DNA of 64,000 bases from an uncultured Clostridia bacterium (lineage in GTDB: Bacteria > Bacillota > Clostridia > Oscillospirales > Ruminococcaceae), in NCBI GenBank assembly GCA_947624555.1, contig CANQKW010000004.1:1-64000 (forward strand). Reading direction: 5' to 3'. Position 1 is the stretch's first letter. Every line of letters begins with the position of its first letter. Of this stretch, positions 1-41,065 are shown piece by piece. Below the pieces are notes generated by a model. The model was given only the letters and a program-made list of their open reading frames with translations, was not told the DNA's origin and did not search any database. A program made the position numbers and the translations under genes.

Positions 1-803
1 CCTGCGCAAAACAATCCTGCCGCTTTTGTTATTCCCGTTTCATCCGCTTTGATATAGCCGTTTTCATCTAAATCGACGATATTTTGCACTAATTCGGACG
101 CAGGCGTCATACCTGCCGCTATAAAAACTCCGTCGAGGAAAAGTCTGTGCCCGTTGTCGAGCATTATTGAGCTTATGCGGTTTTCGCCTGCAATTTCGGT
201 GACATTTGCCGAAGTGATTATCTCAATGTTTTCACGTGACATTATTTTGAGAACGCTTTTCTTTGAGCCTCTGAATTCGTTTCGTCTGTGAATAAGATAC
301 ACCTTTTTTGCAATGTCGGATAAATACAGCGCATCGTCGAGCGCCGTGTCGCCGCCGCCGATAACGGCTGCCGTTTTGCCGGAATACAATGCGCCGTCGC
401 ATATGGCACAATATGATACGCCCTTACCGATAAATTTTTCTTCGCCGCTTACATTCAATCTTTTGTGAGTTGCTCCTGCGGCATAGATAACGGTTTTTGC
501 TTCTATGACATCTCCGCTTTGGAGCGTGGTTATCCAGACGCCGTTTTTCTGTTCAAGGCTTATCGCCTCGCCCTCAAGAAATTCTGCGCCGAAACTTTCC
601 GCATCGTGCCTGAATTTCTCGCCGAGGTCAAATCCGCTTATGCCGCAAAGTCCCAAATAATTATCTACCCGTGTGCTTTCGGCGATCTGCCCCGTTCCGA
701 GATATTCCTTTTCTATAATGATAACGTCGAGATTTGCTCTTTTTGCATACAAAGCCGCAGACAGCCCCGCAGGTCCGCTGCCTATTACCGCAAGATCTTT
801 CAT
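1..803 (-). CDS. trxB: thioredoxin reductase-like FAD/NAD(P)H flavoprotein (3' end outside window)
   Basis: Reverse-strand translation begins MKDLAVIGSGPAGLSAALYAKRANLDVIIIEKEYLGTGQIAESTRVDNYLG (GxGxxG FAD motif). ATG at 803 overlaps the upstream stop (ATGA). Open to the window edge. Confidence 0.85.
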   Translation of the reverse strand, partial: MKDLAVIGSGPAGLSAALYAKRANLDVIIIEKEYLGTGQIAESTRVDNYLGLCGISGFDLGEKFRHDAESFGAEFLEGEAISLEQKNGVWITTLQSGDVIEAKTVIYAAGATHKRLNVSGEEKFIGKGVSYCAICDGALYSGKTAAVIGGGDTALDDALYLSDIAKKVYLIHRRNEFRGSKKSVLKIMSRENIEIITSANVTEIAGENRISSIMLDNGHRLFLDGVFIAAGMTPASELVQNIVDLDENGYIKADETGITKAAGLFCA

Positions 804-1222
804 AGCTTATTTTCCTTTATTACTAATTCCTCACGCTGTGTTTCAGCGCCGTCAATGTGAAAAGAATTGAGCACGGGCTTATCCTTGTCCATAAGCGACA
901 AAATAAGATAACTTGCCGTTTTGTCATAGGCAAGGCGCTTGTCCTCTTCGGACGGTCTTGACGGGGAAGAAGGGTGCGAATGCCAGTTTCCGAGCGGCAA
1001 AAGTCCAAGCTTGCGCATATCCCGAACGGCGGCTAATTGCTCTTTCGGGTCGAGCGAAAAATGCTCGTTCGACTTATCAATATTGCTTAGCAGGTACACT
1101 TTTTCGATAATTTTGTCATTCCCCTCAATTCTGCCTGCGATAAGACCGCAAGCCTCGTTCGGGAGTTCGGACAGAGCATAATCCGCTATTTTCTGAAAAT
1201 CGTCCTTTGATATTATTATCAT
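800..1222 (-). CDS. M67/JAMM (Mov34/MPN) metallopeptidase, copy 1
   Basis: NEACGLIAG...GNWHSHPSSPSRPSEED matches the JAMM E...HxHPx7SxxD zinc motif. Confidence 0.9.
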   Translation of the reverse strand: MIIISKDDFQKIADYALSELPNEACGLIAGRIEGNDKIIEKVYLLSNIDKSNEHFSLDPKEQLAAVRDMRKLGLLPLGNWHSHPSSPSRPSEEDKRLAYDKTASYLILSLMDKDKPVLNSFHIDGAETQREELVIKENKL

Positions 1223-1231
1223 AAAATTTCC

Positions 1232-2038
1232 TCACACGCCGTTACATTCCGCCTGCTCGTAATCTATAAGCTCGGTTATCGAAGGATTTTCGCCGCACAC
1301 CGCACATTTTCCGTTCGGTTTGGGGAGTTTTATCTTGCGAAATTCCATTTTCAGTGCGTTAAACGTCAATAAATATCCCGTAAGCAATTCGCCTGTGCCC
1401 GTTATGTATTTTATCGCCTCCATTGCCTGAAGAGAGCCGATAATGCCGCCCATTGCGCCGATTACTCCCGCCTGCTTGCAGGTAGGCACGGCGTCCTTGG
1501 GCGGAGGCTCTTTGAACACGCATCTGTAGCAGGGACCTTTTTCGGGAACGTAGGTCATAAGCTGCCCCTGAAAGCGAATTATTCCTGCATGGCAAAACGG
1601 TTTCTTTGCCATAACGCAAGCGTCGTTTATCAGAAATTTCGCAGGAAAATTATCCGTGCCGTCTATAATGAAATCGTAGTCTTTGATTATTTTCATTATG
1701 TTTTCCGAGGAAACAAACTCGTGATAGGTATTCACCGTGACATCGGGGTTCATTTTGTTTATCGTTTCCTTTGCCGACTGCACTTTGGGCTTTCCGACAT
1801 CCTCCGTCGCATGAATTATTTGACGCTGTAAATTCGACAAATCTACCTCGTCTGCGTCTGCAATTCCTATCGTTCCTACGCCTGTGGCGGCGAGATACAT
1901 AGCGCAAGGCGCACCCAGACCGCCTGCACCGATTATCAGCACTTTTGCGTTAAGAAGTTTTTTCTGACCTTTTACGCCTACTTCCTTTAAGATGATGTGC
2001 CGGGAATATCTTTCCAGCTGTTCGTTAGAGAATGACAT
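1232..2038 (-). CDS. ThiF/MoeB/HesA family E1-like adenylyltransferase
   Basis: MSFSNEQLERYSRHIILKEVGVKGQKKLLNAKVLIIGAGGLGAP...CYRCVFKEPPP...CAVCG. ATG at 2038 preferred over the longer ORF start. Confidence 0.92.
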   Translation of the reverse strand: MSFSNEQLERYSRHIILKEVGVKGQKKLLNAKVLIIGAGGLGAPCAMYLAATGVGTIGIADADEVDLSNLQRQIIHATEDVGKPKVQSAKETINKMNPDVTVNTYHEFVSSENIMKIIKDYDFIIDGTDNFPAKFLINDACVMAKKPFCHAGIIRFQGQLMTYVPEKGPCYRCVFKEPPPKDAVPTCKQAGVIGAMGGIIGSLQAMEAIKYITGTGELLTGYLLTFNALKMEFRKIKLPKPNGKCAVCGENPSITELIDYEQAECNGV

Positions 2039-2243
2039 AGCTGCCTCCTCCCATAAAATACAAAAATTCCACGGCGTCGCCGTCGTGCAGTTCAATTGAC
2101 GGAAAGTTTTCGTTATCCGCAAACTCGTCATTTACCGATACCGTGATATAATCGGGATTTTCGATGTTTTCCTGTCTGATGAGCTCGGCTATTGTCAAGC
2201 CTTCGTTAAATTCCTTTGTTTCGCCTGCTACTGTAATTTTCAT
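2025..2243 (-). CDS. ThiS/MoaD-like sulfur-carrier protein with residues after the GG motif
   Basis: MKITVAGETKEFNEGLTIAELIRQENIENPDYITVSVNDEF...DAVEFLYFMGGGSYVIL*. ATG at 2243. Overlaps the E1 gene start by 14 nt. Confidence 0.88.
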   Translation of the reverse strand: MKITVAGETKEFNEGLTIAELIRQENIENPDYITVSVNDEFADNENFPSIELHDGDAVEFLYFMGGGSYVIL

Positions 2244-2257
2244 CTCATACCTCCTGA

Positions 2258-2581
2258 TTATCTGTTTTCTTCGATTATATGTTCGAGTTCTTCCTTTTTT
2301 CGTGCGCCTGTAAAACGCTCGACCTCTGAGCCGTTTTTGAACAGCAAAAATGTCGGAGTAGCGGCGACGTCGTATTTCTCGCAAAGTTCGAGTTCATACG
2401 CAGCATTTACTTTCGCAATAAAAACTTCGGAGTATTTCCCGCTAAGTTCAGACAGTATCGGCGACATTCGCTTGCAGGGAACGCAAGTGTCCGTGTAAAA
2501 TTCCACAACGGAAAGCCCCGAAAAATTCAATACCTTTTCGGCAAAATCGTCGTTTCCTATTCTTTCCGTCAAGCTAATCAC
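2258..2581 (-). CDS. thioredoxin-family protein (CVPC active site)
   Basis: LSVVEFYTDTCVPCKRMSPILSELSGKYSEVFIAKVNAAYELELCEKYDVAATPTFLLFKNG. Start is GTG 2581 or TTG 2572; the start in the ORF track is probably too far upstream. Confidence 0.85.
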   Translation of the reverse strand: MISLTERIGNDDFAEKVLNFSGLSVVEFYTDTCVPCKRMSPILSELSGKYSEVFIAKVNAAYELELCEKYDVAATPTFLLFKNGSEVERFTGARKKEELEHIIEENR

Positions 2582-2819
2582 CTGCCTTTCTGACCAAAAG
2601 GTCGTATGTCCCGTCATCGTTTTGGGTAAACTCCAAAATCTCGTGACCTTCCTCTTTAAGACTTCTCGGCACGTTTTGTGCAGGTTCGCCGCTGTTCATA
2701 TGGACTTTAAGGATTTCCCCCTCGTCAAGTTCGTCAAGAGCTACTTTTGTCTTTACAAACGTGATAGGGCAGTTTACATCGGTTATATCTATCGTGTCGG
2801 TTATTTTGTATTCAGCCAT
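2574..2819 (-). CDS. TusA/SirA-like sulfurtransferase
   Basis: MAEYKITDTIDITDVNCPITFVKTKVALDELDEGEILKVHMNSGEPAQNVPRSLKEEGHEIL, TusA-like fold pattern with the conserved N-terminal Cys-Pro. Confidence 0.88.
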   Translation of the reverse strand: MAEYKITDTIDITDVNCPITFVKTKVALDELDEGEILKVHMNSGEPAQNVPRSLKEEGHEILEFTQNDDGTYDLLVRKAGD

Positions 2820-2823
2820 TTTT

Positions 2824-4062
2824 TCATTCCTTTCCGTTTACGCTTTCTATCGCTTGGGTAAAATCTTCGATAAGGTCGCAGGCGTCCTCAATTCCCACGC
2901 TTATGCGGATAGTATCGTCATACACGCCCGCGTTTATTCTCTGCTCTTCGGTGGAATTAAGATAAATGGTTGACGCAGGGTGAATGACGAGAGTTTTCGT
3001 GTCGCCGATATTTGTCGCATTCAGCGCATATTTCAGGGAGTTCATAAGCGCACAGGCTTTCTCCTTTGAACCTGCTCTCAGGGTCACTATACCGCCGCCC
3101 TTGCCGCCGAATTGCTTTTGGACTAAGGGATAATACGGATTGCTTGGGAGAGCAGGGTAATTTATCTTTACGCCGTTTATTTTCTCCAGTGCCTTTGCAA
3201 GCGCCAGAGCGTTTTCGCAGATACGTTCCACTCTTAATGCAAGCGTTTCAACGCCCAATAAATTCAGATATGCGTTCATCGGAGAAAGACAGCCGCCGAT
3301 ATTTCGCCATATGTCGTTTTTGAGCCGTGCGGTAAACGCAAGCCGACCGTATTTTTTATACGGCGCAAGTACGGGATATTTATCAAAATCCCATTTGAAA
3401 TTTCCGCTGTCTGTGATTATTCCGCTTATTGAATTACCGCTCCCGTTTATGTATTTCGACGAGGAATGTATAACAATGTCCGCACCGTATTCAATCGGGC
3501 GGATAAGATACGGCGTGGCGGTAGTGGCGTCTGCGAAAAGCGGAATTTTATTTTCGTGTGCAAGCTCTGATACGCTGCGAATATCCATAACGTCAAGACA
3601 AGGATTTCCGATTATCTCGCCGAAAATCACCTTTGTTTTGTCGGTGATTTGACTTTTTATCTCGTCTGTGGTCATATGCGTTACAAATTTTGTTGTAATG
3701 CCGTATTCTTTAAGGTCACGGAACAGGTCTACCGTTCCGCCGAACAGCCCTGCGCCTGCAATTATCTCGTCGCCCGTGCCTAAGATATTCAAAAGCGCCG
3801 ACGATATAGCCGCCATTCCCGATGAACAGGCTGTTGCGGCACGCCCGCCCTCAAGCTCGCAAATGCGCCTTTCAAAAGCGTCTACCGTAGGATTTGAAAT
3901 CCTTGTGTAGGCAAAGCCTGCCGCTTTCCCGGCAAACACCTTTTCGAGATCCTCCGCACTTTCATATGAGAATGCGCAGACCTGGCTTATCGGCGGAAGA
4001 GTTGCACCGTTTTGAAATCTCCCTGCCGATTTGCCGTGCAATAATTTTGTACAAAATTCCAT
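2824..4062 (-). CDS. Cys/Met metabolism PLP enzyme, O-acetylhomoserine sulfhydrylase-like (MetY), copy 1
   Basis: GKAAGFAYTRISNPTVDAFERRICELEGGRAATACSSGMAAISSALL...VIHSSSKYINGSGNS, PLP lysine context of the Cys_Met_Meta_PP family. Confidence 0.88.
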   Translation of the reverse strand: MEFCTKLLHGKSAGRFQNGATLPPISQVCAFSYESAEDLEKVFAGKAAGFAYTRISNPTVDAFERRICELEGGRAATACSSGMAAISSALLNILGTGDEIIAGAGLFGGTVDLFRDLKEYGITTKFVTHMTTDEIKSQITDKTKVIFGEIIGNPCLDVMDIRSVSELAHENKIPLFADATTATPYLIRPIEYGADIVIHSSSKYINGSGNSISGIITDSGNFKWDFDKYPVLAPYKKYGRLAFTARLKNDIWRNIGGCLSPMNAYLNLLGVETLALRVERICENALALAKALEKINGVKINYPALPSNPYYPLVQKQFGGKGGGIVTLRAGSKEKACALMNSLKYALNATNIGDTKTLVIHPASTIYLNSTEEQRINAGVYDDTIRISVGIEDACDLIEDFTQAIESVNGKE

Positions 4063-4076
4063 AATAAGTACCGTCT

Positions 4077-5804
4077 TTATATTGATCTTAACACTCTTAC
4101 CAAAGTATCAATATCTTCAAAAGTGTTATACAATGCCAAAGTAGGCCGTACAACGCCCTCAAGTCCGTAGTGCCGAAGAATGGGCTGTGCGCAATGATGA
4201 CCCACACGCACGGCAATTCCGTTTTGATCGAGAATTTGCCCTACGGTATCATTTGGCACGCCGTCTATTACGAAAGAAAGTGCGCTTGATTTAGAGAGAG
4301 CAGTGCCGACAAGATGAAGTCCGCTGACTTTTGCGAGTTCTTTCATTCCGTAGCTTACAAGCTCGTGTTCATATGCGCTGACAGCAGGCATACCTATCGA
4401 GCTGAGATATTCGAGCGCCGCACCTAAACCCACTGCGTCGGCGATGCTGCCTGTTCCTGCCTCAAATTTATTCGGCACGGGATTGTATATCGTTCTTTCA
4501 AACGTAACGTCCTTTATCATATTGCCGCCGCCGTGATAGGGCTTTGCGGTTTCGAGAACGTCCTTTTTGCCGTAGAGAGCGCCTATTCCCGTGGGAGCGT
4601 ATATTTTATGACCCGAAAACACGAAAAAATCAGCGTCAAGCGCAGAAACGTTCACGGGGATATGCGCTATAGACTGCGCACCGTCTATCATTATCCGCAC
4701 GCCGTGTCTGTGCGCAATTGCAATAAGCTCGGCTGCGGGCGTTATAGTGCCTAATACGTTTGAAACGTGGGTTACGGACACGAATTTTGTGCGTTTGGTA
4801 AACAGCTTTTCGTATTCGGAGAGTTTAAGCTGTCCCGAATCGTCCACGGGAATTACCTTTATTACCGCGCCCGTTTCCTGTGCAACCAGCTGCCACGGAA
4901 CGATATTTGCGTGATGCTCCAAAAGCGAAACGATTATCTCATCGCCCGGCTCTAAAAGCGGTTTTACATAAGACTGCGCCACGAGATTTATGCCCTCGGT
5001 CGTACCTCTTACGAATATGATGTTATTCTTTGACGGCGCACCGATAAAATCTGCAACAGTCTGACGAGCCTTTTCATATGCGTCCGTCGACCTTGCCGCC
5101 AACGTATGCGCTCCTCTGTGGACGTTTGAGTTTTCATGCTCGTAATAATAGCTAAGTCTATCTATTACGGCTTTCGGGCGCTGGGTAGTTGCGCCGTTGT
5201 CAAGCCATATAAGCGGATTTCCGTTTACCTTTTCCCGAAGTATGGGAAAATCCTCACGGATCTGTTCGAGCGTTTTCGTTCCGACAACTATTTTCGTGTT
5301 GTTTTTCTGACCGCCTACGGTTTCAAAACTCACGCCTTTGCTGTCCTTTTGCGGGATAACGTTGTTGTCATTTGCCGTTGTACGGACGTTTATGCTGTTA
5401 TTTTCATCAGCCTGCGCCTGCGATACTACTTTTGGTGAAAATCCAGAGTTATCGGCTTCCTTGCTCGTATTATCATTTTCAAGCTCGTGAAAAGCTCCGC
5501 CTATGTCGGTGAAAGCAGGAAACTCGCTGTTTACGCCCGAAAAACTGTCGAAATTCAATTCTTTGCCGAGCTGTCCGAGAATATTCTCATAATCGCTTGT
5601 TCCAAGCGCAGAAACGGCTTTGTTTGCGGCGGTATTGATAATTCCCGTATCACCCGTTGTCACGAGTTTTTGAATGCCGTCGGCGCATACGTCGGGTTCA
5701 AAATTGCCGCCCAAATCGCCGAAAAGGTCGTTGGCAAGCGTTTGCAGCTCGTATTCCGAAGGAAGTCCCGAATAATCGAAAACATCAAAATTATTCGTAG
5801 TCAT
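4077..5804 (-). CDS. SufS-type cysteine desulfurase with ~177-aa N-terminal extension; predicted encapsulin cargo (CyD)
   Basis: C-terminal part TLEQIREDFPILREKVNGNPLIWLDNGATTQRPKAVIDRLSYYYEHENSNVHRGAHTLAARST...FSGHKIYAPTGIGALYGKK...VRVGHHCAQPIL is SufS-like. N-terminal part MTTNNFDVFDYSGLPSEYELQTLANDLFGDLGGN... is Asn/Ser/Gly rich. ATG at 5804 lies inside the 3' end of the shell gene. Confidence 0.92.
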   Translation of the reverse strand: MTTNNFDVFDYSGLPSEYELQTLANDLFGDLGGNFEPDVCADGIQKLVTTGDTGIINTAANKAVSALGTSDYENILGQLGKELNFDSFSGVNSEFPAFTDIGGAFHELENDNTSKEADNSGFSPKVVSQAQADENNSINVRTTANDNNVIPQKDSKGVSFETVGGQKNNTKIVVGTKTLEQIREDFPILREKVNGNPLIWLDNGATTQRPKAVIDRLSYYYEHENSNVHRGAHTLAARSTDAYEKARQTVADFIGAPSKNNIIFVRGTTEGINLVAQSYVKPLLEPGDEIIVSLLEHHANIVPWQLVAQETGAVIKVIPVDDSGQLKLSEYEKLFTKRTKFVSVTHVSNVLGTITPAAELIAIAHRHGVRIMIDGAQSIAHIPVNVSALDADFFVFSGHKIYAPTGIGALYGKKDVLETAKPYHGGGNMIKDVTFERTIYNPVPNKFEAGTGSIADAVGLGAALEYLSSIGMPAVSAYEHELVSYGMKELAKVSGLHLVGTALSKSSALSFVIDGVPNDTVGQILDQNGIAVRVGHHCAQPILRHYGLEGVVRPTLALYNTFEDIDTLVRVLRSI

Positions 5805-6744
5805 AATACTCGCCCACCTCAACATCTTCCAATACCGCAATAGCGTCGTCCGCTAAAATCGCCGCAGAGCAGTAAAGACTCAGCAGATAGGACGCCGTGC
5901 CTTTGTCGTCAATGCCTCTGAAACGCACCGACAGACCTCTTGACTGTTCGTTTTTCATACCTGCCTGATAAAGTCCGATAACTCCTCGTTTAGCCTCTCC
6001 GGTACGCAGCAGGAGAATGTTGGTCTTTCCGCTTTTGCTCTTGGGATTTTTTAGCCCGTCTACAAGGAGCTTGTCGGTAGGGATTATCGGTATTCCTCTC
6101 CAGACTATGAATGTGCCGCCTGCGATGTTTGTTGTTACGGGAGGAACGCCTCTTTTCGTACATTCTCTTTCAAACGCCGCTATTGCACGGGGATGAGCGA
6201 GGAAGAATGACGGTTCTTTCCATACTTTTGTGATAAGCTCGTCAAGGTCGTCGGGAGTGGGCGCACCGTTGCTCTGAACAGGCTGTATCCTCTGCGAGTC
6301 GGCAACATTTTTGAGCAAGCCGTAATCATCGTTATTGATAAGCTGGCTCTCCTGACGTTCACGCAGGCTCTCGATGCCGAGCGAAAGCTGTTCCTTTACC
6401 TGATCGTAGGGTGCGCTGTAAACGTCCTCTATAGCAGTATTAACGTTGATAATCGTTGAAATGGAATTTAGGCGATACTCACGAGGTTCTTCCTCGTATT
6501 TTATGTAGCCGTCGGGGATAATGTCTGACTTCTTGGTCTGACTGCACAAAACGTCAAGCGGAGTATCTCCCTCAACGACCTTGTTCACACGGTAAATTCC
6601 CGTCGGCAAGCCCTTAAATTCCAAAAGCTTTGTCAGCCATTTCGGGGTAATTGCGCCGTATTGAGGCTTTGTTTTGTTTACGTCCGCCAGATTATAGGCG
6701 GCACGGGCGCCTAATGCCTTGATTGTCTGTTCTTCATTTGCCAT
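5791..6744 (-). CDS. srpI-like: Family 2A encapsulin shell protein (SrpI-like, HK97 fold)
   Basis: ALGARAAYNLADVNKTKPQYGAITPKWLTKLLEFKGLPTGIYRVNKV...PREYRLNSISTIINVNTAIEDVYSAPYDQVKEQLSLGIESLRERQESQLINNDDYGLL...TPDDLDELITKVWKEPSFFLAHPRAIAAFERECTKRGVPP...GLSVRFRGIDDKGTASYLLSLYCSAAIL resembles SrpI as recalled. No cyclic-nucleotide-binding insertion (317 aa). Adjacent to the cysteine desulfurase. Confidence 0.9.
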   Translation of the reverse strand: MANEEQTIKALGARAAYNLADVNKTKPQYGAITPKWLTKLLEFKGLPTGIYRVNKVVEGDTPLDVLCSQTKKSDIIPDGYIKYEEEPREYRLNSISTIINVNTAIEDVYSAPYDQVKEQLSLGIESLRERQESQLINNDDYGLLKNVADSQRIQPVQSNGAPTPDDLDELITKVWKEPSFFLAHPRAIAAFERECTKRGVPPVTTNIAGGTFIVWRGIPIIPTDKLLVDGLKNPKSKSGKTNILLLRTGEAKRGVIGLYQAGMKNEQSRGLSVRFRGIDDKGTASYLLSLYCSAAILADDAIAVLEDVEVGEYYDYE

Positions 6745-6780
6745 TGTTTTATTCTCCTTAAAATTATTTTATCGGAAAGC

Positions 6781-8220
6781 CTAAGCTTTCTCATTTGCAA
6801 AAAATATTTCCTTTGCAGCGTTCACGCCGCCGCTGAGGCTTAACATTCGTCCCGTATATCCTGCGTCTTTCAGCGTATTTATCGCCAAAATGCTGCGCTT
6901 GCCCTCGGTGCAGATGAAAACGGTATCTGTATTTGCGTCAAGTTCCTTCTGACGCCTTACAAGCTGCCCTATCGGAATATAAACTGCGTTCGGGAAACGG
7001 TAAATTGCACGCTCGTGCGGCTCTCTGATGTCAATTACAGTGAGCGGCTCGCCGCTGTCCATTCTCGCTTTAAGCTCGGCAGGCTCTATCGTTTCGACGG
7101 AATTTTCTTCTTCGCACGGTTTTAGTCCGCAGAAATCCTCGTAGTCAAATTCGGTTATTTCCGTAATAGACGGAGATTTTCCGCAGACGGGGCAATTTTC
7201 GTCCCTGCATATATTCAAGACCGACGTACGAAAATTCCAAGTATCCATAAGGAACAGCCTGCCCGTAAGAGTTTCTCCGCCGCCTATAATCAGCTTTAAG
7301 ACTTCGTTTGCCTGTATGCTGCCGATAATTCCCGAAAGAGGGCTTATCGTACCGCCTGCAGAGCAAGTGGGGACTAATCCTGCGGGCGGCGGCGCAGGAA
7401 ACTGACACCGAAAACACGGACTTTCGTTTTGTACGTCGAAAACGCTTACCTGTCCCTCGAACTGATAAATTGCCCCGAACACGAGCGGCTTTTTGCAAAG
7501 AACGCAGGCATCGTTAATAAGATAGCGTGACTGATAATTGTCCGTACAGTCGACTATCACGTCATAGCCGTCTATTATTTCTGCTATGTTGTCGGCAATT
7601 ATACGCTCGTTTATCGTTTCGATTTTGACATTAGGATTTACGGCTTTTATCTTATCCCTTGCGGACGCAGTTTTTGGTCGGTTTATATCTTTTATCGTGT
7701 GTATCACCTGGCTTTGCAGATTGCCGAGCGAAACCTCGTCAAAATCGGCTATGCCGAGCGTCCCCACTCCTGCTGTCGCCAGATACTGCACGACGGGAGC
7801 GCCGAGCGACCCCAATCCTATAACGAGCACTTTCGCCGCTTTAATGCGTTTTTGACCTTTTACTCCGATATTTCTCAGCATAAGGTGCTTGTTATAGCGT
7901 TCAATTTCCTTGTCGTCAAGCATCACCGCCTTGCGGCGTTCATCGGAAATAATGCCCGAAGCGCCTCCTGCGATCACAGGCAGCAGCAAAATGCGGTCGC
8001 CCTCTTTTAATTTTGCGTCGCTGTGTACTCGCATATCGTTTACGAAAATGCTGACAAACGGCTTTATTTTGCCGTTATCCTCGAAAATTTTCTTACATTC
8101 GGGATATTTTTCGCACAAGTCGCAAAGCGCCTCCTGCACAGTATTTCCCTCGACCTCGACTTCGGTTTTATGCTCTGCGAAAATGCGCAGAGTCGCCGAA
8201 ATGTACAACGTGTTCTTCAT
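6781..8220 (-). CDS. three-domain fusion: MoaD/ThiS-like sulfur carrier + MoeB/ThiF E1-like adenylyltransferase + rhodanese
   Basis: N-term MKNTLYISATLRIFAEHKTEVEVEG...GDRILLLPVIAGGASG (carrier with GG at residues 85-86). Middle KHLMLRNIGVKGQKRIKAAKVLVIGLGSLGAP...CPVCG (E1). C-term PLTVIDIREPHERAIYRFPNAVYIPI...VFICTEGKRS (rhodanese with active-site Cys). Confidence 0.92.
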   Translation of the reverse strand: MKNTLYISATLRIFAEHKTEVEVEGNTVQEALCDLCEKYPECKKIFEDNGKIKPFVSIFVNDMRVHSDAKLKEGDRILLLPVIAGGASGIISDERRKAVMLDDKEIERYNKHLMLRNIGVKGQKRIKAAKVLVIGLGSLGAPVVQYLATAGVGTLGIADFDEVSLGNLQSQVIHTIKDINRPKTASARDKIKAVNPNVKIETINERIIADNIAEIIDGYDVIVDCTDNYQSRYLINDACVLCKKPLVFGAIYQFEGQVSVFDVQNESPCFRCQFPAPPPAGLVPTCSAGGTISPLSGIIGSIQANEVLKLIIGGGETLTGRLFLMDTWNFRTSVLNICRDENCPVCGKSPSITEITEFDYEDFCGLKPCEEENSVETIEPAELKARMDSGEPLTVIDIREPHERAIYRFPNAVYIPIGQLVRRQKELDANTDTVFICTEGKRSILAINTLKDAGYTGRMLSLSGGVNAAKEIFFANEKA

Positions 8221-8659
8221 AATTTTTCTCGCTTTCTGTTATGAGATATTCTTCCCTACAGATATTTGTACCGATAATTTTTTCAAAGCTCGCAATTTTA
8301 AAATACAGTCCGTCTGCTCCCTCGTTTACCGAAACAATCGGATATGAATGATCGTAAAGCATATACCGTTCGTCGGTTTTTGAGAGGACAGCGGCGCAGT
8401 TTGGGTGCGAATGATAAAATCCGACTATCATAAGATCATGAGCAAAAGCTAAAAGCTCTGTCTTATGGATAACAAGCGGATCTAAAGCAAAATACGCCGA
8501 TTTATCCCTTGCGCTTTTATTTTCCAGACGCAGCGCTTGTTCTGCAAAGCGCTTATTGCTTATCTGCTTTCCGAGCAAAACGCCGCAGCATTCGTTCGGG
8601 TATTCGCTCTTTGCATGAGCTAAAAGCTCTCTTGTTACTTCATCATTAAGTACGAGCAT
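8168..8659 (-). CDS. M67/JAMM metallopeptidase, copy 2
   Basis: NECCGVLLG...IVGFYHSHPNCAAVLSKTDERYMLYD, JAMM HxHPx7SxxD. Overlaps the fusion gene by 53 nt. Confidence 0.88.
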   Translation of the reverse strand: MLVLNDEVTRELLAHAKSEYPNECCGVLLGKQISNKRFAEQALRLENKSARDKSAYFALDPLVIHKTELLAFAHDLMIVGFYHSHPNCAAVLSKTDERYMLYDHSYPIVSVNEGADGLYFKIASFEKIIGTNICREEYLITESEKNYEEHVVHFGDSAHFRRA

Positions 8660-8671
8660 AAAAATTACCTG

Positions 8672-8725
8672 TAAAAATAAAAAAGCCCGAGTTTTCTACA
8701 GAACACGTTCTGTAAAAACCTCCGG
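8672..8725 (-). terminator. intrinsic-terminator-like hairpin between yezD-like ORF and JAMM gene
   Basis: Reverse strand CCGGAGGTTTTTACAGAAC-GT-GTTCTGTAGAAAACTCGGG followed by CTTTTTTATTTTT. Core TACAGAAC-GT-GTTCTGTA is a perfect inverted repeat. Confidence 0.7.
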
Positions 8726-8771
8726 TTTTCCGGTCAGTTTAATCTGATAAAACTGTATAAAAAGTCAATCC

Positions 8772-8904
8772 TCAGACTGTAGAGAAAGTCCCAGCATGCA
8801 CGCATTATGCCCTTCGGGCAAAACGCTGAAGCGTGACTGCGGCTAGGCTTTGTGCCTGACGCAGTTGCGCTGACGACGCAGATGGGGCTTTATCTACAGT
8901 CTGA
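8772..8904. repeat. 133-bp structured element bounded by 22-bp imperfect terminal inverted repeats
   Basis: Left TCAGACTGTAGAGAAAGTCCCA (8772-8793). Right TGGGGCTTTATCTACAGTCTGA (8883-8904), whose reverse complement matches the left end at 20/22. Interior has nested hairpins (GCCCTTCGGGC, ACGCTGAAGCGT). Confidence 0.65.
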
Positions 8905-9040
8905 TTTTATCTGTTTTTTCTACTTGGATTACCTTTCCGTCCTGAATTACAGCAGTCACGGTCCCGTATTTCGTTTCCCGTATCAGCCTGTCTATAATTT
9001 CAAGGTAATTATCTTTTTTCACATCGTCGGTTTTCGGCAA
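8894..9040 (-). CDS. YezD-like (DUF2292) small protein
   Basis: Reverse-strand translation LPKTDDVKKDNYLEIIDRLIRETKYGTVTAVIQDGKVIQVEKTDKIRL*. Matches the YezD pattern (xxYGxVxxxIQDGKVVQIExTxKIR). TTG start 9040 (or GTG 9049) after GAGGGGG. Not in the supplied ORF track. Confidence 0.72.
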   Translation of the reverse strand: MPKTDDVKKDNYLEIIDRLIRETKYGTVTAVIQDGKVIQVEKTDKIRL

Positions 9041-9073
9041 TATCCACACCCCCTCGGTTTTTGTTATGTTTAC

Positions 9074-9102
9074 ATTATAACACAGTCCAAAGCGTTTGTC
9101 TA
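9074..9102 (-). promoter_or_regulatory. sigma-A-type promoter of the encapsulin/sulfur operon
   Basis: Reverse strand TAGACA - 17 nt - TATAAT just upstream of the YezD-like ORF. Confidence 0.6.
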
Positions 9103-9118
9103 ATACATAATAGGTATT
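9102..9118. promoter_or_regulatory. candidate LysR operator AATAC-N7-GTATT
   Basis: aatacataataggtatt, dyad of the ATAC-N7-GTAT (T-N11-A) type abutting the -35, directly downstream of a lysR gene. Confidence 0.45.
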
Positions 9119-9156
9119 CCGAGCTATAGATTGAATTTATAACTCCGAGCGTGTTT

Positions 9157-10095
9157 TTAATCCTTGCCGATAGCCTTATATTTTTCAAGATAACCCCGTA
9201 TTTCCTCAATATAAAGCCTTCCCATTGCGCTTATAGGCATATTTTTCCTTGTGATATAGCCTATGACCATTCTGTCGGCGTCGTCGGGCGTTTCATATTC
9301 AAACGGAACGGCGACAAAATCCGTACCGTTTAATTCCTCACAGATTATCCCCGAACACAACGTATAGCCGTTCAGTCCTATCATCAGATTTAACATCGTG
9401 GCTCGGTCGCTGGCTTTTATCGTCCTTGCATAATCCTTTGTACCTAAAATCTCCTCCGCAAAATAGAACGAACCGTTGTCGCCCTGTTCAAATGACAGGC
9501 AAGGATATTCGTTAAGCTCTTCAAATCGTATTGAACTGCGCTTTGCAAGCGGATGCTCACGCCACAGATATACATATGCGTCGCAGACGGCAAGCTCGTG
9601 AAATTCCAGATCTTTTGTATGCAGGAGTTTCATTATAACCGCACGGTTGAAGTCGCTGAGATAAATTATCCCGATCTCGCTTTTGCCTGTATTTACGTCG
9701 TCTATCACCTCTTTGGTCTTGGTTTCTCTGATTGCAAAATCGTATTCAGCTGTATTGAATTTTTTTGCTGTTTCTACAAAACTTTTTACTGCAAAAGAAT
9801 AATGCTGCGTTGAAATGCCGAATTTTTTCTTTAAATTTCCAAATTTTCCGTACTTTTGGACAATCTCTTCATATTGCTGATACAACTGCCTTGCGTACAG
9901 CAAAAACTCCATACCCTCGTTTGTAGGCGTAACGCCTCTGCCGCTGCGGTAAAAAATCGTTATCCCAAGCTCCTTTTCAAGCTCCTTTACAGAGCTTGTA
10001 AGCGACGGCTGCGATACATACAAAATTTCCGATGCCTTATTGAGAGAACCTGTTTCGGAAATCGTTATAATATAATGCAGTTGTTGTAAAGTCAT
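9157..10095 (-). CDS. LysR-family transcriptional regulator
   Basis: MTLQQLHYIITISETGSLNKASEILYVSQPSLTSSVKELEKELGITIFYRSGRGVTPTNEG, LysR HTH, followed by a substrate-binding domain. Confidence 0.93.
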   Translation of the reverse strand: MTLQQLHYIITISETGSLNKASEILYVSQPSLTSSVKELEKELGITIFYRSGRGVTPTNEGMEFLLYARQLYQQYEEIVQKYGKFGNLKKKFGISTQHYSFAVKSFVETAKKFNTAEYDFAIRETKTKEVIDDVNTGKSEIGIIYLSDFNRAVIMKLLHTKDLEFHELAVCDAYVYLWREHPLAKRSSIRFEELNEYPCLSFEQGDNGSFYFAEEILGTKDYARTIKASDRATMLNLMIGLNGYTLCSGIICEELNGTDFVAVPFEYETPDDADRMVIGYITRKNMPISAMGRLYIEEIRGYLEKYKAIGKD

Positions 10096-10125
10096 AACAT
10101 CCCTCCTTTTAAACGTCTGTAAATT

Positions 10126-10159
10126 ATTATAATACTATTTACCTACTATGTCAATAGGG
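10126..10159 (-). promoter_or_regulatory. lysR promoter with overlapping palindromic operator
   Basis: Reverse strand CCCTATTGACATAGTAGGTAAATAGTATTATAAT: TTGACA-17-TATAAT. Palindrome ACCTA-N9-TAGGG at 10141-10159 covers the -35. Confidence 0.65.
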
Positions 10160-10218
10160 ATTATGGCATATTTTAAATTTTTTATGATTTTTGGTGAATT
10201 TGGCGCAAAGCAAAGCAA

Positions 10219-10250
10219 AATAAGAGGTCAGAACCAAAATTCTGACCTCT
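10219..10250 (-). terminator. hairpin terminator downstream of tRNA-Thr
   Basis: Inverted repeat aagaggtcagaaccaaaattctgacctctt, followed on the reverse strand by ATTTTGC. Confidence 0.5.
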
Positions 10251-10296
10251 TACCTCTAAAGTGTTGAAACCCACCGTAAAGGTGGGCTTCAATGCG

Positions 10297-10372
10297 TGGA
10301 GCTGGTGAACGGACTCGAACCCCCGACCTGCGCATTACGAATGCGCTGCTCTACCGACTGAGCTACACCAGC
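10297..10372 (-). tRNA. tRNA-Thr (anticodon CGT), CCA encoded
   Basis: Reverse strand GCTGGTGTAGCTCAGTCGGTAGAGCAGCGCATTCGTAATGCGCAGGTCGGGGGTTCGAGTCCGTTCACCAGCTCCA. Loop TTCGTAA gives CGT; acceptor stem GCTGGTG/CACCAGC. Confidence 0.93.
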
Positions 10373-10484
10373 ATATTTTTTCTGCGTCGGACACCATATA
10401 TTATTCTATCACAACGGCGAAATTTTGTCAAGTACTTTTTTGCAAAAAAGAGAATCGGCGATTTCTCACCGACTCACTTCATAT

Positions 10485-11954
10485 TTACAAAATTATACAG
10501 ATAAGTCCCCCACAGCCGTCGTTTATTATCCTGCCTATCGTTTCCTGGAGTTTCATTCGGGCGTCCTGAGGCATTCGATTGAGCTTGTTGTGCAAGCCTT
10601 CGTTTACCAGATCGGACAACGATTTGCCGAAAATATTGCTCTCCCAGATCTTTGTGGGATTTTCCTCAAAATCGTTCAGCAGATAGTTTATCAGCTCCTC
10701 GGACTGTTTTTCGCTGCCGACTATAGGATTTATTTCCGTGGTAATATTTGCGCTCATCATATGTATCGACGGGGCTGACGCTTTTAAACGTACTCCGTAT
10801 TTACCGCCCTGCTTGATTATCTGCGGCTCTTCCAGGGTCAATTCGTCCATTTGCGGCAGCACTATTCCGTAGCCTGTCGCCTCGACTTCGTCAAGTGCAT
10901 TTTTGACTCTTTCGTATCTGCGCTTGATGTTTGCAAGCTCTATCATACACGGCATAAGGTCGTTTTCGCTGTTGAGAGGAAGTCCTGTCGCCTCTCCCAG
11001 AATTTTGTAGAAAAGCTCATTTTCAAGCGTTACGTCAATCACGCCCGAACCTGTGCCCAAATCAAGCTGCATAGGCTCGGCACGCTTTATGTGTTCACAC
11101 TCGTTTATTTTCTCTGCGCAGAGCTTTATGTCGTTTATTCCCCGAATATCCGCAGCGGCTGCTTTTATACAGCCGAAAACGTCTTTTTTAAGCCAATGCT
11201 CCTTGTCAAGCGCAGAAATCCAACGGGGCATTTTTATCTTTACTTCACGGACGGGGAATTTCAAGAGTACCTCTCCTAAAATTTCTTTGATTTTTTCTTC
11301 GTCCATATCAACGCAATTAAGCGGTATAACACGGGTTTCATACTTCTGCGAAAGCTCTTCCGAAAGCTTTTTGCTGTCGGCACTTTCGGGGTCGGTGCAG
11401 TTAAGGAGCACTACAAACGGCTTGTTTATCTCGTTAAGCTCGTTTATTATGCGTTCTTCAGCCTGCTCGTATTCTTCCCTGGGAATGTCCGTCACAGAAC
11501 CGTCTGTCGTTACCACTATTCCTATTGTCGAATGGTCGGTTATGACCTTTCTTGTGCCGACTTCAGCCGCCATATTAAACGGAATTTCCTCGTCGAACCA
11601 CGGCGTTACGACCATTCTCGGCGCCTCGTTTTCTATGTAGCCTATTGCGCTCGGAACAATATAGCCCACGCAGTCGATAAGGCGGACATTCATTTTTACG
11701 TCGTCTATAAGGACAGAAACTGCCTCTTCGGGGACGAATTTCGGCTCGGTGGTCATTATCGTCTTGCCTGCCGACGACTGAGGAAGTTCGTCATTGGCAC
11801 GCTCACGGCGGTATTCGTCGGGAATGTTCGGGATAACCAAATCGTTCATAAAACGGCTGATAAAAGTGGATTTTCCCGAACGCACGGGACCTACTACCCC
11901 AAGGTAAATATTACCTCCCGTGCGCCTGGCTATATCTGAGTAAATATTATTCAT
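10485..11954 (-). CDS. spoIVA: stage IV sporulation protein A (coat-morphogenesis ATPase)
   Basis: MNNIYSDIARRTGGNIYLGVVGPVRSGKSTFISRFMNDLVIPNI, Walker A and ...GRIINDGCGGLICIIL end. Confidence 0.95.
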   Translation of the reverse strand: MNNIYSDIARRTGGNIYLGVVGPVRSGKSTFISRFMNDLVIPNIPDEYRRERANDELPQSSAGKTIMTTEPKFVPEEAVSVLIDDVKMNVRLIDCVGYIVPSAIGYIENEAPRMVVTPWFDEEIPFNMAAEVGTRKVITDHSTIGIVVTTDGSVTDIPREEYEQAEERIINELNEINKPFVVLLNCTDPESADSKKLSEELSQKYETRVIPLNCVDMDEEKIKEILGEVLLKFPVREVKIKMPRWISALDKEHWLKKDVFGCIKAAAADIRGINDIKLCAEKINECEHIKRAEPMQLDLGTGSGVIDVTLENELFYKILGEATGLPLNSENDLMPCMIELANIKRRYERVKNALDEVEATGYGIVLPQMDELTLEEPQIIKQGGKYGVRLKASAPSIHMMSANITTEINPIVGSEKQSEELINYLLNDFEENPTKIWESNIFGKSLSDLVNEGLHNKLNRMPQDARMKLQETIGRIINDGCGGLICIIL

Positions 11955-11977
11955 TTTAATATGCTCCTTTCGACCGC

Positions 11978-13513
11978 TTATACCGTTGGAATTATTATCA
12001 TTCCCGAAAGCGTTTCCTGTTCGTCGATGATGCCGTTTTCTTCCATTAAGGCTTTTACGGTGGTATTGTATGCTTTGGCTATGCTCCAGCAGTCGGACTG
12101 CTCGTCGGTATAGCAAATTCTGAGCGCAAATTCTTCGGATTTGGCTTTCGGCTTATCTTCCTTCACGGTAATATCGCTCAAAGTGTCTGCGGTCACTACA
12201 TCGTGAAGAGCGCCTTTAAGCTCCGTAAGAGCAGATATTTCAATTGCGCCGTCCGATTTTATCGAAAAGTCGGTTTCTGTTACTCTTGCGGTAAACTGTG
12301 CCGAAGAATTTTCGTTTATGTCAGAAACAGGAATAATCTGCTGAAACGCCTCCTGTTTTTCCATATAAAACGGGATATTGTCGGTATTTTTTCCGTAGGC
12401 GGAGCAGCAGAGCAAACCTGAAAATTCGGGATTTTTGTCCTCGTTTATCCGAAAAACGGGATTTTTTATTTCAGCACGGCAATCCCACACAGAACGTATT
12501 TCGCTGTTCTCGGCGGCAAGGTTCATTTTGAGCGTGAGTGACTGCGAAAATGTCCTCGGATAGCTGTTAAGCCTAAGCGTGTTTGTGAGATATTCCGTTT
12601 CAAATTCCGTCGAATAAACGTCGTCGGGAATGGAAAGTTTCTCGGCTTTCCACGCTTTAACGCAGCACTCGGCGGTTAAACGGCAAGAAATTATGCCGCT
12701 GTCGGATTTGGGGATAAGCTCGAAATCAAGAATATTCAAGGAAGGCATTATTACATGGTCGTCGGTTATTCCGTAAATGTCGAGAATTGCGCTTATCGGT
12801 ATTTCGGCGGTCATTTTTTCAGCCTCGGAGCTGCCGTTTGTATCGGCGTCGGGCAAGCCGTAAAGCGCATTTACCACAACAGAGCCTTTTACGACCGCTT
12901 TATCCGCTACAATTCTTACATCGGTGACTTTTGGGCAGGCGGAACTGTCCATTATAAACGCTACTCCGCCCGAACCTGTTTCGATTTCTTCCGAGCTTAA
13001 AAGCTGTTTTTGTGCGTAAAGCGTTTTTCCGCAGCAATTTACGGTCTGCGTTCTTACCTGAAGTCCCTCGGGAATTTCACAGAGAGCGTGTTCACGGCAG
13101 GATTCTGCACGAATACGTCCCGAAACTGCTCCCCTTACGTCTATTCTTCGGGGAGAAACGGCTCGGCAGGTGCAGTAATCCTGTTTCATTTCAAAGCAGA
13201 CTGACGCTGCCGAAATGTCTTTTTTGCTGATGTCAATAAGCTTTGAATAGGTGTAGCGCTGGTCCACGCAGAATACATCGGAACTTCCTTCGGTAAGGTA
13301 CAGCACTTTTATGTATACCACGCCGTCAAGCGAAAGCCTTCCATCGCTTGATACGCTGTACGATACTATTTTCGGCGTCAGCGAACAGGACAGAATTTTA
13401 AAAATGTCGGGACAATAATCGGGCAGAATATAATCCAGCTCTACTCCCTGCTCTGTCTGACCGTCGAAAACCGTTTCATCGATATATACGGCGGATTTGT
13501 TTATTTCTTCCAT
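11978..13513 (-). CDS. DUF3794 (SPOCS) + LysM domain protein, spore-associated
   Basis: MEEINKSAVYIDETVFDGQTEQGVELDYILPDYCPDIFKIL...CYTDEQSDCWSIAKAYNTTVKALMEENGI. ATG 13513 has the RBS aaggagg. Confidence 0.85.
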   Translation of the reverse strand: MEEINKSAVYIDETVFDGQTEQGVELDYILPDYCPDIFKILSCSLTPKIVSYSVSSDGRLSLDGVVYIKVLYLTEGSSDVFCVDQRYTYSKLIDISKKDISAASVCFEMKQDYCTCRAVSPRRIDVRGAVSGRIRAESCREHALCEIPEGLQVRTQTVNCCGKTLYAQKQLLSSEEIETGSGGVAFIMDSSACPKVTDVRIVADKAVVKGSVVVNALYGLPDADTNGSSEAEKMTAEIPISAILDIYGITDDHVIMPSLNILDFELIPKSDSGIISCRLTAECCVKAWKAEKLSIPDDVYSTEFETEYLTNTLRLNSYPRTFSQSLTLKMNLAAENSEIRSVWDCRAEIKNPVFRINEDKNPEFSGLLCCSAYGKNTDNIPFYMEKQEAFQQIIPVSDINENSSAQFTARVTETDFSIKSDGAIEISALTELKGALHDVVTADTLSDITVKEDKPKAKSEEFALRICYTDEQSDCWSIAKAYNTTVKALMEENGIIDEQETLSGMIIIPTV

Positions 13514-40896: not shown

Positions 40897-40925
40897 TTGA
40901 CAAATTCGGGTCAACGTGGTATAAT
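40897..40925 (+). promoter_or_regulatory. rplJL promoter
   Basis: TTGACA-17-TATAAT. Confidence 0.75.
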
Positions 40926-40930
40926 AATCT

Positions 40931-41065
40931 TGCTGTTCTAAAGACAGCAGGTGGAAGAAATTCTATAATGCGGCTATACGCCTCGCCTGCCGAAGAACGG
41001 GATTTGATTTTTGCGAAATCTGTTCTCCCTTTCTGTCTTTTACAGAGGGGTTTTTGTTTTTTGAC
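40931..41065 (+). ncRNA. ribosomal protein L10 leader
   Basis: Structured leader upstream of rplJ: TGCTGTTCTAAAGACAGCAGGTG...CGCCTGCCGAAG... then CCCTTTCTGTCTTTTACAGAGGGGTTTTT terminator. Confidence 0.75.

Follow-up and report, generated by a model that had tools for sequence, protein, structure and literature searches.

A gut bacterial fusion of sulfur carrier, E1 and rhodanese in a family 2A encapsulin operon as a candidate precursor for JAMM-mediated carrier release

The window, the whole stretch of 64,000 nucleotides that was analysed, carries on its reverse strand a single open reading frame that joins a MoaD/ThiS sulfur carrier, a MoeB-like E1 and a rhodanese (FUS; Table 1). Pfam places all three domains in this frame, as originally predicted, and all matches exceed the curated cut-offs: ThiS at residues 8–86 (E 4e-10), ThiF at 109–345 (E 1e-77) and Rhodanese at 380–468 (E 3e-12). 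The beta-grasp carrier domain has its C-terminal Gly-Gly, and the Pfam match ends exactly on the second glycine, at the position that had been given for it. The E1-rhodanese part keeps the ThiF fold, the nucleotide-binding loop and the equivalents of Lys86, Asp130, the zinc cysteines and the C-terminal rhodanese cysteine, which lies in the expected CTEGKRS loop. A JAMM gene immediately upstream, also part of the original prediction, overlaps the fusion by 53 nt. Its product, JAMM2, is a Prok-JAB protein with the full E..HxH..SxxD motif; E23, H83, H85, S93 and D96 are invariant in 18 orthologs. It has the JAMM (MPN) fold, with Rpn11 and Pyrococcus PfJAMM1 among the best PDB matches.

Downstream on the same strand follow an encapsulin shell protein, its cargo cysteine desulfurase, a METY-like enzyme, TusA, thioredoxin, a separate ThiS, a second E1 (E1b) and a second JAMM protease (JAMM1). 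The encapsulin shell, the cargo desulfurase and the second carrier, E1 and JAMM were absent from the original prediction. With a 2A shell and a cargo cysteine desulfurase, the window contains a family 2A encapsulin operon. The unfused set at 800–2243 is of the Wolinella hcy type and belongs to the same operon as FUS. A LysR-type regulator, named from its sequence, is encoded upstream on the same strand (9157–10095) and possibly controls the operon. Rfam found no riboswitch or leader at the operon; its sole matches in the window were a tRNA gene (10300–10372) and a ribosomal protein L10 leader (40920–41065).

Table 1. Coordinates of the fusion gene, its domains and the neighbouring operon genes in the window.
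Feature	Position	Strand	Basis
FUS, MoaD/ThiS – MoeB-like E1 – rhodanese triple fusion, 479 aa	6781..8220	-	single ORF
FUS carrier domain, residues 1–86	7963..8220	-	PF02597 8–86; computed mass 9.7 kDa if released
FUS internal Gly85-Gly86; predicted cleavage after Gly86	7963..7968	-	invariant in 66/66 fused orthologs
FUS linker, residues 87–102, motif (S)IISDERRK	7915..7962	-	alignment; resembles N-terminus MSIIPEER of the separate E1 of L073
FUS E1 adenylation domain, residues 103–350	7171..7914	-	Pfam ThiF 109–345; alignment to MoeB
FUS rhodanese domain, persulfide Cys437 in CTEGKRS	6784..7110	-	Pfam Rhodanese 380–468
JAMM2 metalloprotease, presumed to cut FUS after Gly-Gly	8168..8659	-	PF14464 Prok-JAB, E 1e-17
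Family 2A encapsulin shell protein	5791..6744	-	NF041162, 474 bits (cut-off 380); PF19307
Encapsulin cargo cysteine desulfurase, SufS-type, long N-terminal extension	4077..5840	-	NF041166, 779 bits, just below cut-off 800
METY-like O-acetylhomoserine/O-acetylserine sulfhydrylase family enzyme	2824..4062	-	PF01053; TIGR01326 subfamily model 406 bits, below cut-off
TusA-like sulfurtransferase	2574..2819	-	PF01206
Thioredoxin	2258..2617	-	PF00085
Separate ThiS-type carrier ending FMGGGSYVIL (tail past Gly-Gly)	2025..2243	-	family search, C-terminal sequence
E1b, separate MoeB-like E1, Arg14 and Arg73 intact	1232..2038	-	PF00899
JAMM1, second JAMM metalloprotease	800..1222	-	PF14464; HSHP..S..D motif

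A scan of species genomes showed that the triple fusion is common to more than 60 near full-length orthologs with 53–91% identity. They come from Bacillota, Fibrobacterota, Spirochaetota, Planctomycetota and Pseudomonadota, mostly from rumen or gut MAGs; a few loci represent one genome fetched twice, and the phylum labels of the MAGs are open to mis-binning. Three fused records (L015, L062, L064) have no MAG label, the hosts being Lachnospiraceae KH1P17 and G41 and Treponema zioleckii kT3. Profile searching of 391 genomes across the class added just one further fusion (G507). The Gly-Gly is kept in 66/66 fused sequences, and the PxIAGG tail is invariant too. Comparison with close relatives indicates purifying selection on the carrier domain (dN 0.06–0.07, dS 0.24–0.41). 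A missed stop codon or an assembly error might be suspected, as one relative, L073, has a split version. The conservation of Gly-Gly and architecture in all 66 fused orthologs, including the records without MAG label, excludes chance or such an error, and the spread of more than 60 fusions over five phyla makes an artefact a negligible option. Behind the Gly-Gly, the linker varies in length and leads to a SIISDERRK-like motif, which is conserved across phyla despite its varying distance from the glycines.

The neighbourhood is conserved as well. In loci with enough flanking sequence, an encapsulin gene lies downstream of the fusion in 59/59 and a cargo desulfurase in 50/50 cases. JAMM2 is encoded immediately upstream in 58/64 loci. 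The six exceptions are two Fibrobacter loci (L034, L038), a short contig (L033), L060, which has JAMM1 on a contig ending just upstream, and L054 and L071, which represent one genome (G097) with JAMM1 only. The Fibrobacter loci have JAMM2 at a distance of about 1.7–2 kb from the fusion. A JAMM was found in 7/7 genomes checked. JAMM2 is a fast-evolving protein, with about 30–37% identity to most orthologs. Given this fast evolution and a genome with JAMM1 only, the releasing protease may differ between lineages, and JAMM1 may do the cutting in G097.

In two relatives, the carrier has a gene of its own. The L073 carrier terminates in AIAGGK and a stop codon, and the separate E1 begins with MSIIPEER, a match to the linker motif seen in the fusions. 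As this genome is just 54% complete and the sister L074 is fused, the split in L073 could be a later fission. The second case is on the complete plasmid pACIB of Aliarcobacter cibarius (L161). Its carrier ends with SIAGGI, and the stop codon overlaps the E1 start (TAATG). The gene order is cysteine synthase, JAMM, carrier, E1, rhodanese, 2A encapsulin and desulfurase. The locus (4032–12444) is on a mobilizable plasmid and is interrupted twice: IS110 separates JAMM from carrier, and an IS5 element separates E1 from rhodanese. The tree places the E1 of pACIB directly outside the fused clade, weakly supported (58/94), and a single fused clade was not rejected (AU p 0.43). Close fusions were absent from plasmids, with the split pACIB relative the only find, and spread by plasmids was discarded as an explanation.

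Both split carriers extend one residue past the Gly-Gly. These ends, GGK and GGI, suggest that the carrier was already a precursor that needed a trim after Gly-Gly. The simplest reading of the sequences is that trimming by JAMM came first; loss of the stop codon would then have swapped a one-residue tail for a whole E1-rhodanese. Split, fused and Arg73-less stages (see below) all survive today, which makes the evolution of a carrier–E1 fusion directly testable. The separate ThiS proteins have a short tail beyond Gly-Gly in nearly all loci. In L042, the open frame of the separate ThiS extends more than 20 residues past FMGGG, compared with the usual 1–5; this may be a genuine extension or an effect of the frame.

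The original prediction held that the carrier is freed by a JAMM cut after the buried Gly-Gly. This idea gains support from the strict conservation of the Gly-Gly, the linkage with JAMM, the split relatives with one additional residue and the precedent of Deinococcus, where DRJAMM cuts a MoaD-MoaE fusion (PMC8832034). MoaX of Mycobacterium was also argued to need cutting (PMC3227635). The AlphaFold model of FUS has a mean pLDDT of 82 and a pTM of 0.62, and its confidence is among the lowest at the Gly-Gly (stretch 82–87 in model numbering, 83–88 in FUS). Such low confidence is expected for, and fits, a flexible and reachable stretch. An internal translation start behind the Gly-Gly was considered and rejected. 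An SD-like GGAGG occurs at these codons in just 16/65 sequences, no more often than glycine codon use would predict, and a conserved start codon is absent. In the split L073, the Gly-Gly codons do resemble a ribosome site.

The fusion might also stay uncut, with the tethered carrier in a structural or regulatory role and the separate ThiS as the only working carrier. The presence of that ThiS in the same operon agrees with this, and other bacteria have Ubl-ThiF fusions that were proposed to differ in role (PMC1779556). An invariant Gly-Gly and PxIAGG tail, the JAMM linkage and the split relatives, in which this carrier is a protein on its own, argue against it. So does G137, a genome without any other ThiS-family carrier. 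A permanently tethered carrier is thus improbable.

Aligned to MoeB (1jw9), the fused E1 of the window has serine (S170) in place of Arg73 and lysine (K111) in place of Arg14. Both ATP-contacting arginines of MoeB and MoeZ are thus missing; K86, D130, the catalytic-type C286 and the four zinc cysteines are retained. In the family, position 73 is occupied by serine (52), asparagine (7), cysteine (2) or arginine (6). The phylogeny indicates that Arg73 was lost a single time, in the ancestor of a clade supported by 98 in one tree and 100/100 in another. Arg73 is kept by the basal members L054, L060, L072, L073, L074 and L154. An intact E1b (76–85% identity) was present in 24/25 genomes examined; the search in the Arg73-less genome G589 gave no E1b match. 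L054 and L060 keep Arg73, yet also have E1b.

These observations bear on the originally proposed ‘self-contained polyprotein’, in which JAMM2 would free the carrier and the fused E1-rhodanese alone would adenylate and thiolate it. The catalytic residues speak in its favour: GxGxxG, the equivalents of Lys86 and Asp130 (the latter in 66/67), C286 and the zinc and rhodanese cysteines are conserved in all or nearly all family sequences. The basal genome G137 (100% complete), which keeps Arg73, encodes no other ThiS-family carrier that could be found. The fusion is also its only E1 match at E <= 1e-60, and the JAMM2 beside it is the only Prok-JAB, so nothing else found in G137 could serve. For the window's clade, the replacement of Arg73 by Ser, Asn or Cys, accompanied in the window by Arg14 to Lys, and the widespread intact E1b weigh against it. 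In yeast, Tcd2 requires its Arg73 equivalent (R128A, -91%), not its Arg14-type finger, and Tcd1, which is without the Arg73 equivalent, works as a partner of Tcd2 (PMC13139853). Self-containment is thus doubtful for the window, where the operon supplies an intact second E1, a carrier and a JAMM, and maybe applies in G137. As a general explanation it is unlikely. Self-containment may be the basal condition, from which that of the window was derived, a polarity drawn from one evolutionary event. With the ATP-contacting Arg73 lost from the fused E1, adenylation in the window's clade probably depends on E1b of the same operon, which likewise builds on that one event.

Yeast Tcd1–Tcd2 (PMC13139853) resembles this situation in that one paralog lost the equivalent of MoeB Arg73 and the other keeps it; Tcd1–Tcd2 is a heterodimer, and for the two E1s of the window pairing is hypothetical. 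By analogy, the Arg73-less fused E1 might be a half-dead E1 pairing with the intact E1b. Two carriers, two E1s and two JAMMs would then form one encapsulin-fed system, in which proteolysis would set a carrier:E1:rhodanese ratio of 1:1:1. This extension is tentative and less likely than not.

We infer that FUS is a pro-carrier, with a probability of roughly 0.65 for the complete reading. A JAMM protease would cut after Gly86, the simplest candidate being JAMM2 from the overlapping gene. The products would be a 9.7 kDa MoaD-like carrier ending with Gly-Gly and an E1-rhodanese. The rhodanese Cys437 would receive persulfide sulfur originating from the encapsulin cysteine desulfurase. The C-terminus of the carrier would be adenylated, in the window's clade probably with the second, intact E1 of the operon, and then converted to a thiocarboxylate. 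Finally, the sulfur would be handed to an amino-acid sulfhydrylase, METY-like in the window and cysteine synthase-like in basal loci.

The final step is suggested by gene content. Upstream of JAMM2, the basal loci L099, L100 and L101 encode a protein resembling cysteine synthase, and many derived loci encode a METY-like one. In the window, the METY-like enzyme presumably performs the sulfur acceptor step. As sulfhydrylase-type genes stand together with desulfurase and rhodanese, the sequences point to a role in cysteine or homocysteine synthesis from carrier-bound sulfur. Molybdopterin and thiazole synthesis are poor alternatives, since MoaE was found in none of 8 genomes (control matches in 11/14) and G000 encodes a separate ThiS and ThiG for thiazole on a different contig. 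Like ubiquitin, the released carrier could also be conjugated to proteins such as the encapsulin shell and be removed by JAMM, as known for SAMPs. Desampylases are known among JAMM proteins, HvJAMM1 cleaves both isopeptide and linear SAMP1 fusions (PMC8832034), and the only NCBIfam match of JAMM2 is to a desampylase model, below the cut-off. The sulfur context throughout, with rhodanese, desulfurase, TusA, sulfhydrylase and, in basal loci, cysteine synthase, makes conjugation very improbable.

The pro-carrier reading has several relatives among known systems. Deinococcus DR2607/DRJAMM and mycobacterial MoaX also have a carrier with internal Gly-Gly fused to a partner and a need for release by proteolysis, as predicted for FUS (PMC8832034; PMC3227635). 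Unlike in these MoaD-MoaE fusions, the partner in FUS is the activating E1-rhodanese, the gene resides in an encapsulin operon, and the genomes checked are devoid of MoaE. The parts of the locus correspond to the three-gene operons of ThiS/MoaD, JAB and E1-rhodanese, some with cysteine synthase, in rows 4b/4c of Iyer et al. 2006 (PMC1779556). They are also those of the CysO-CysM-Mec-MoeZ pathway of Mycobacterium; basal loci and pACIB likewise have a cysteine synthase by JAMM. In contrast to both, carrier and E1 are fused here, encapsulin and desulfurase always adjoin, and the window's clade, devoid of Arg73, encodes a METY-like enzyme in place of the cysteine synthase. The Ubl domain in the Ubl-ThiF fusions of Iyer et al. 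2006 is distinct from ThiS, and the FUS domain is a PF02597 domain with Gly-Gly. A comparison search with PF14453 gave no match anywhere, controls included.

The second half of the operon, with tailed ThiS, rhodanese-less E1, JAMM, TusA/SirA and a member of the OAH sulfhydrylase family, is like the Wolinella-type HcyS-HcyD-HcyF-MetY system (type of Iyer row 4e). Unlike in that system, the hcy-like unfused half is linked here to a fusion and encapsulin half. The mechanism of the Wolinella-type homocysteine pathway was reportedly described by Krishnamoorthy and Begley in 2011.

Literature searches gave nothing relevant on MoaD-MoeB or ThiS-ThiF fusions or on encapsulins joined with such carriers; subscription journals were thinly covered, which makes this absence weak. 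The parts are known; the searchable literature seems to contain no description of the fusion, its link to encapsulin or the loss of Arg73. One conserved cluster would join protease-released carriers, thiocarboxylate-based amino-acid synthesis and an encapsulin cysteine desulfurase, which points to a novel route from stored sulfur to the synthesis of amino acids. The cluster gives a testable proposal for the fate of the sulfur that the 2A encapsulin cargo releases in gut bacteria. Shell and cargo are those of the family 2A encapsulin with cysteine desulfurase cargo (SrpI), for which serine acetyltransferase and rhodanese are the published accessory genes (PMC8049743, PMC8346489). The text of the encapsulin paper has no mention of ThiF, MoeB or a sulfur carrier (PMC8346489). 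Family 2A loci also occur without the fusion, five of them in Bacillota. Eleven Pseudomonadota 2A loci have serine acetyltransferase, shell and desulfurase without carrier, E1 and JAMM and, unlike the FUS loci, show the published arrangement (PMC8346489).
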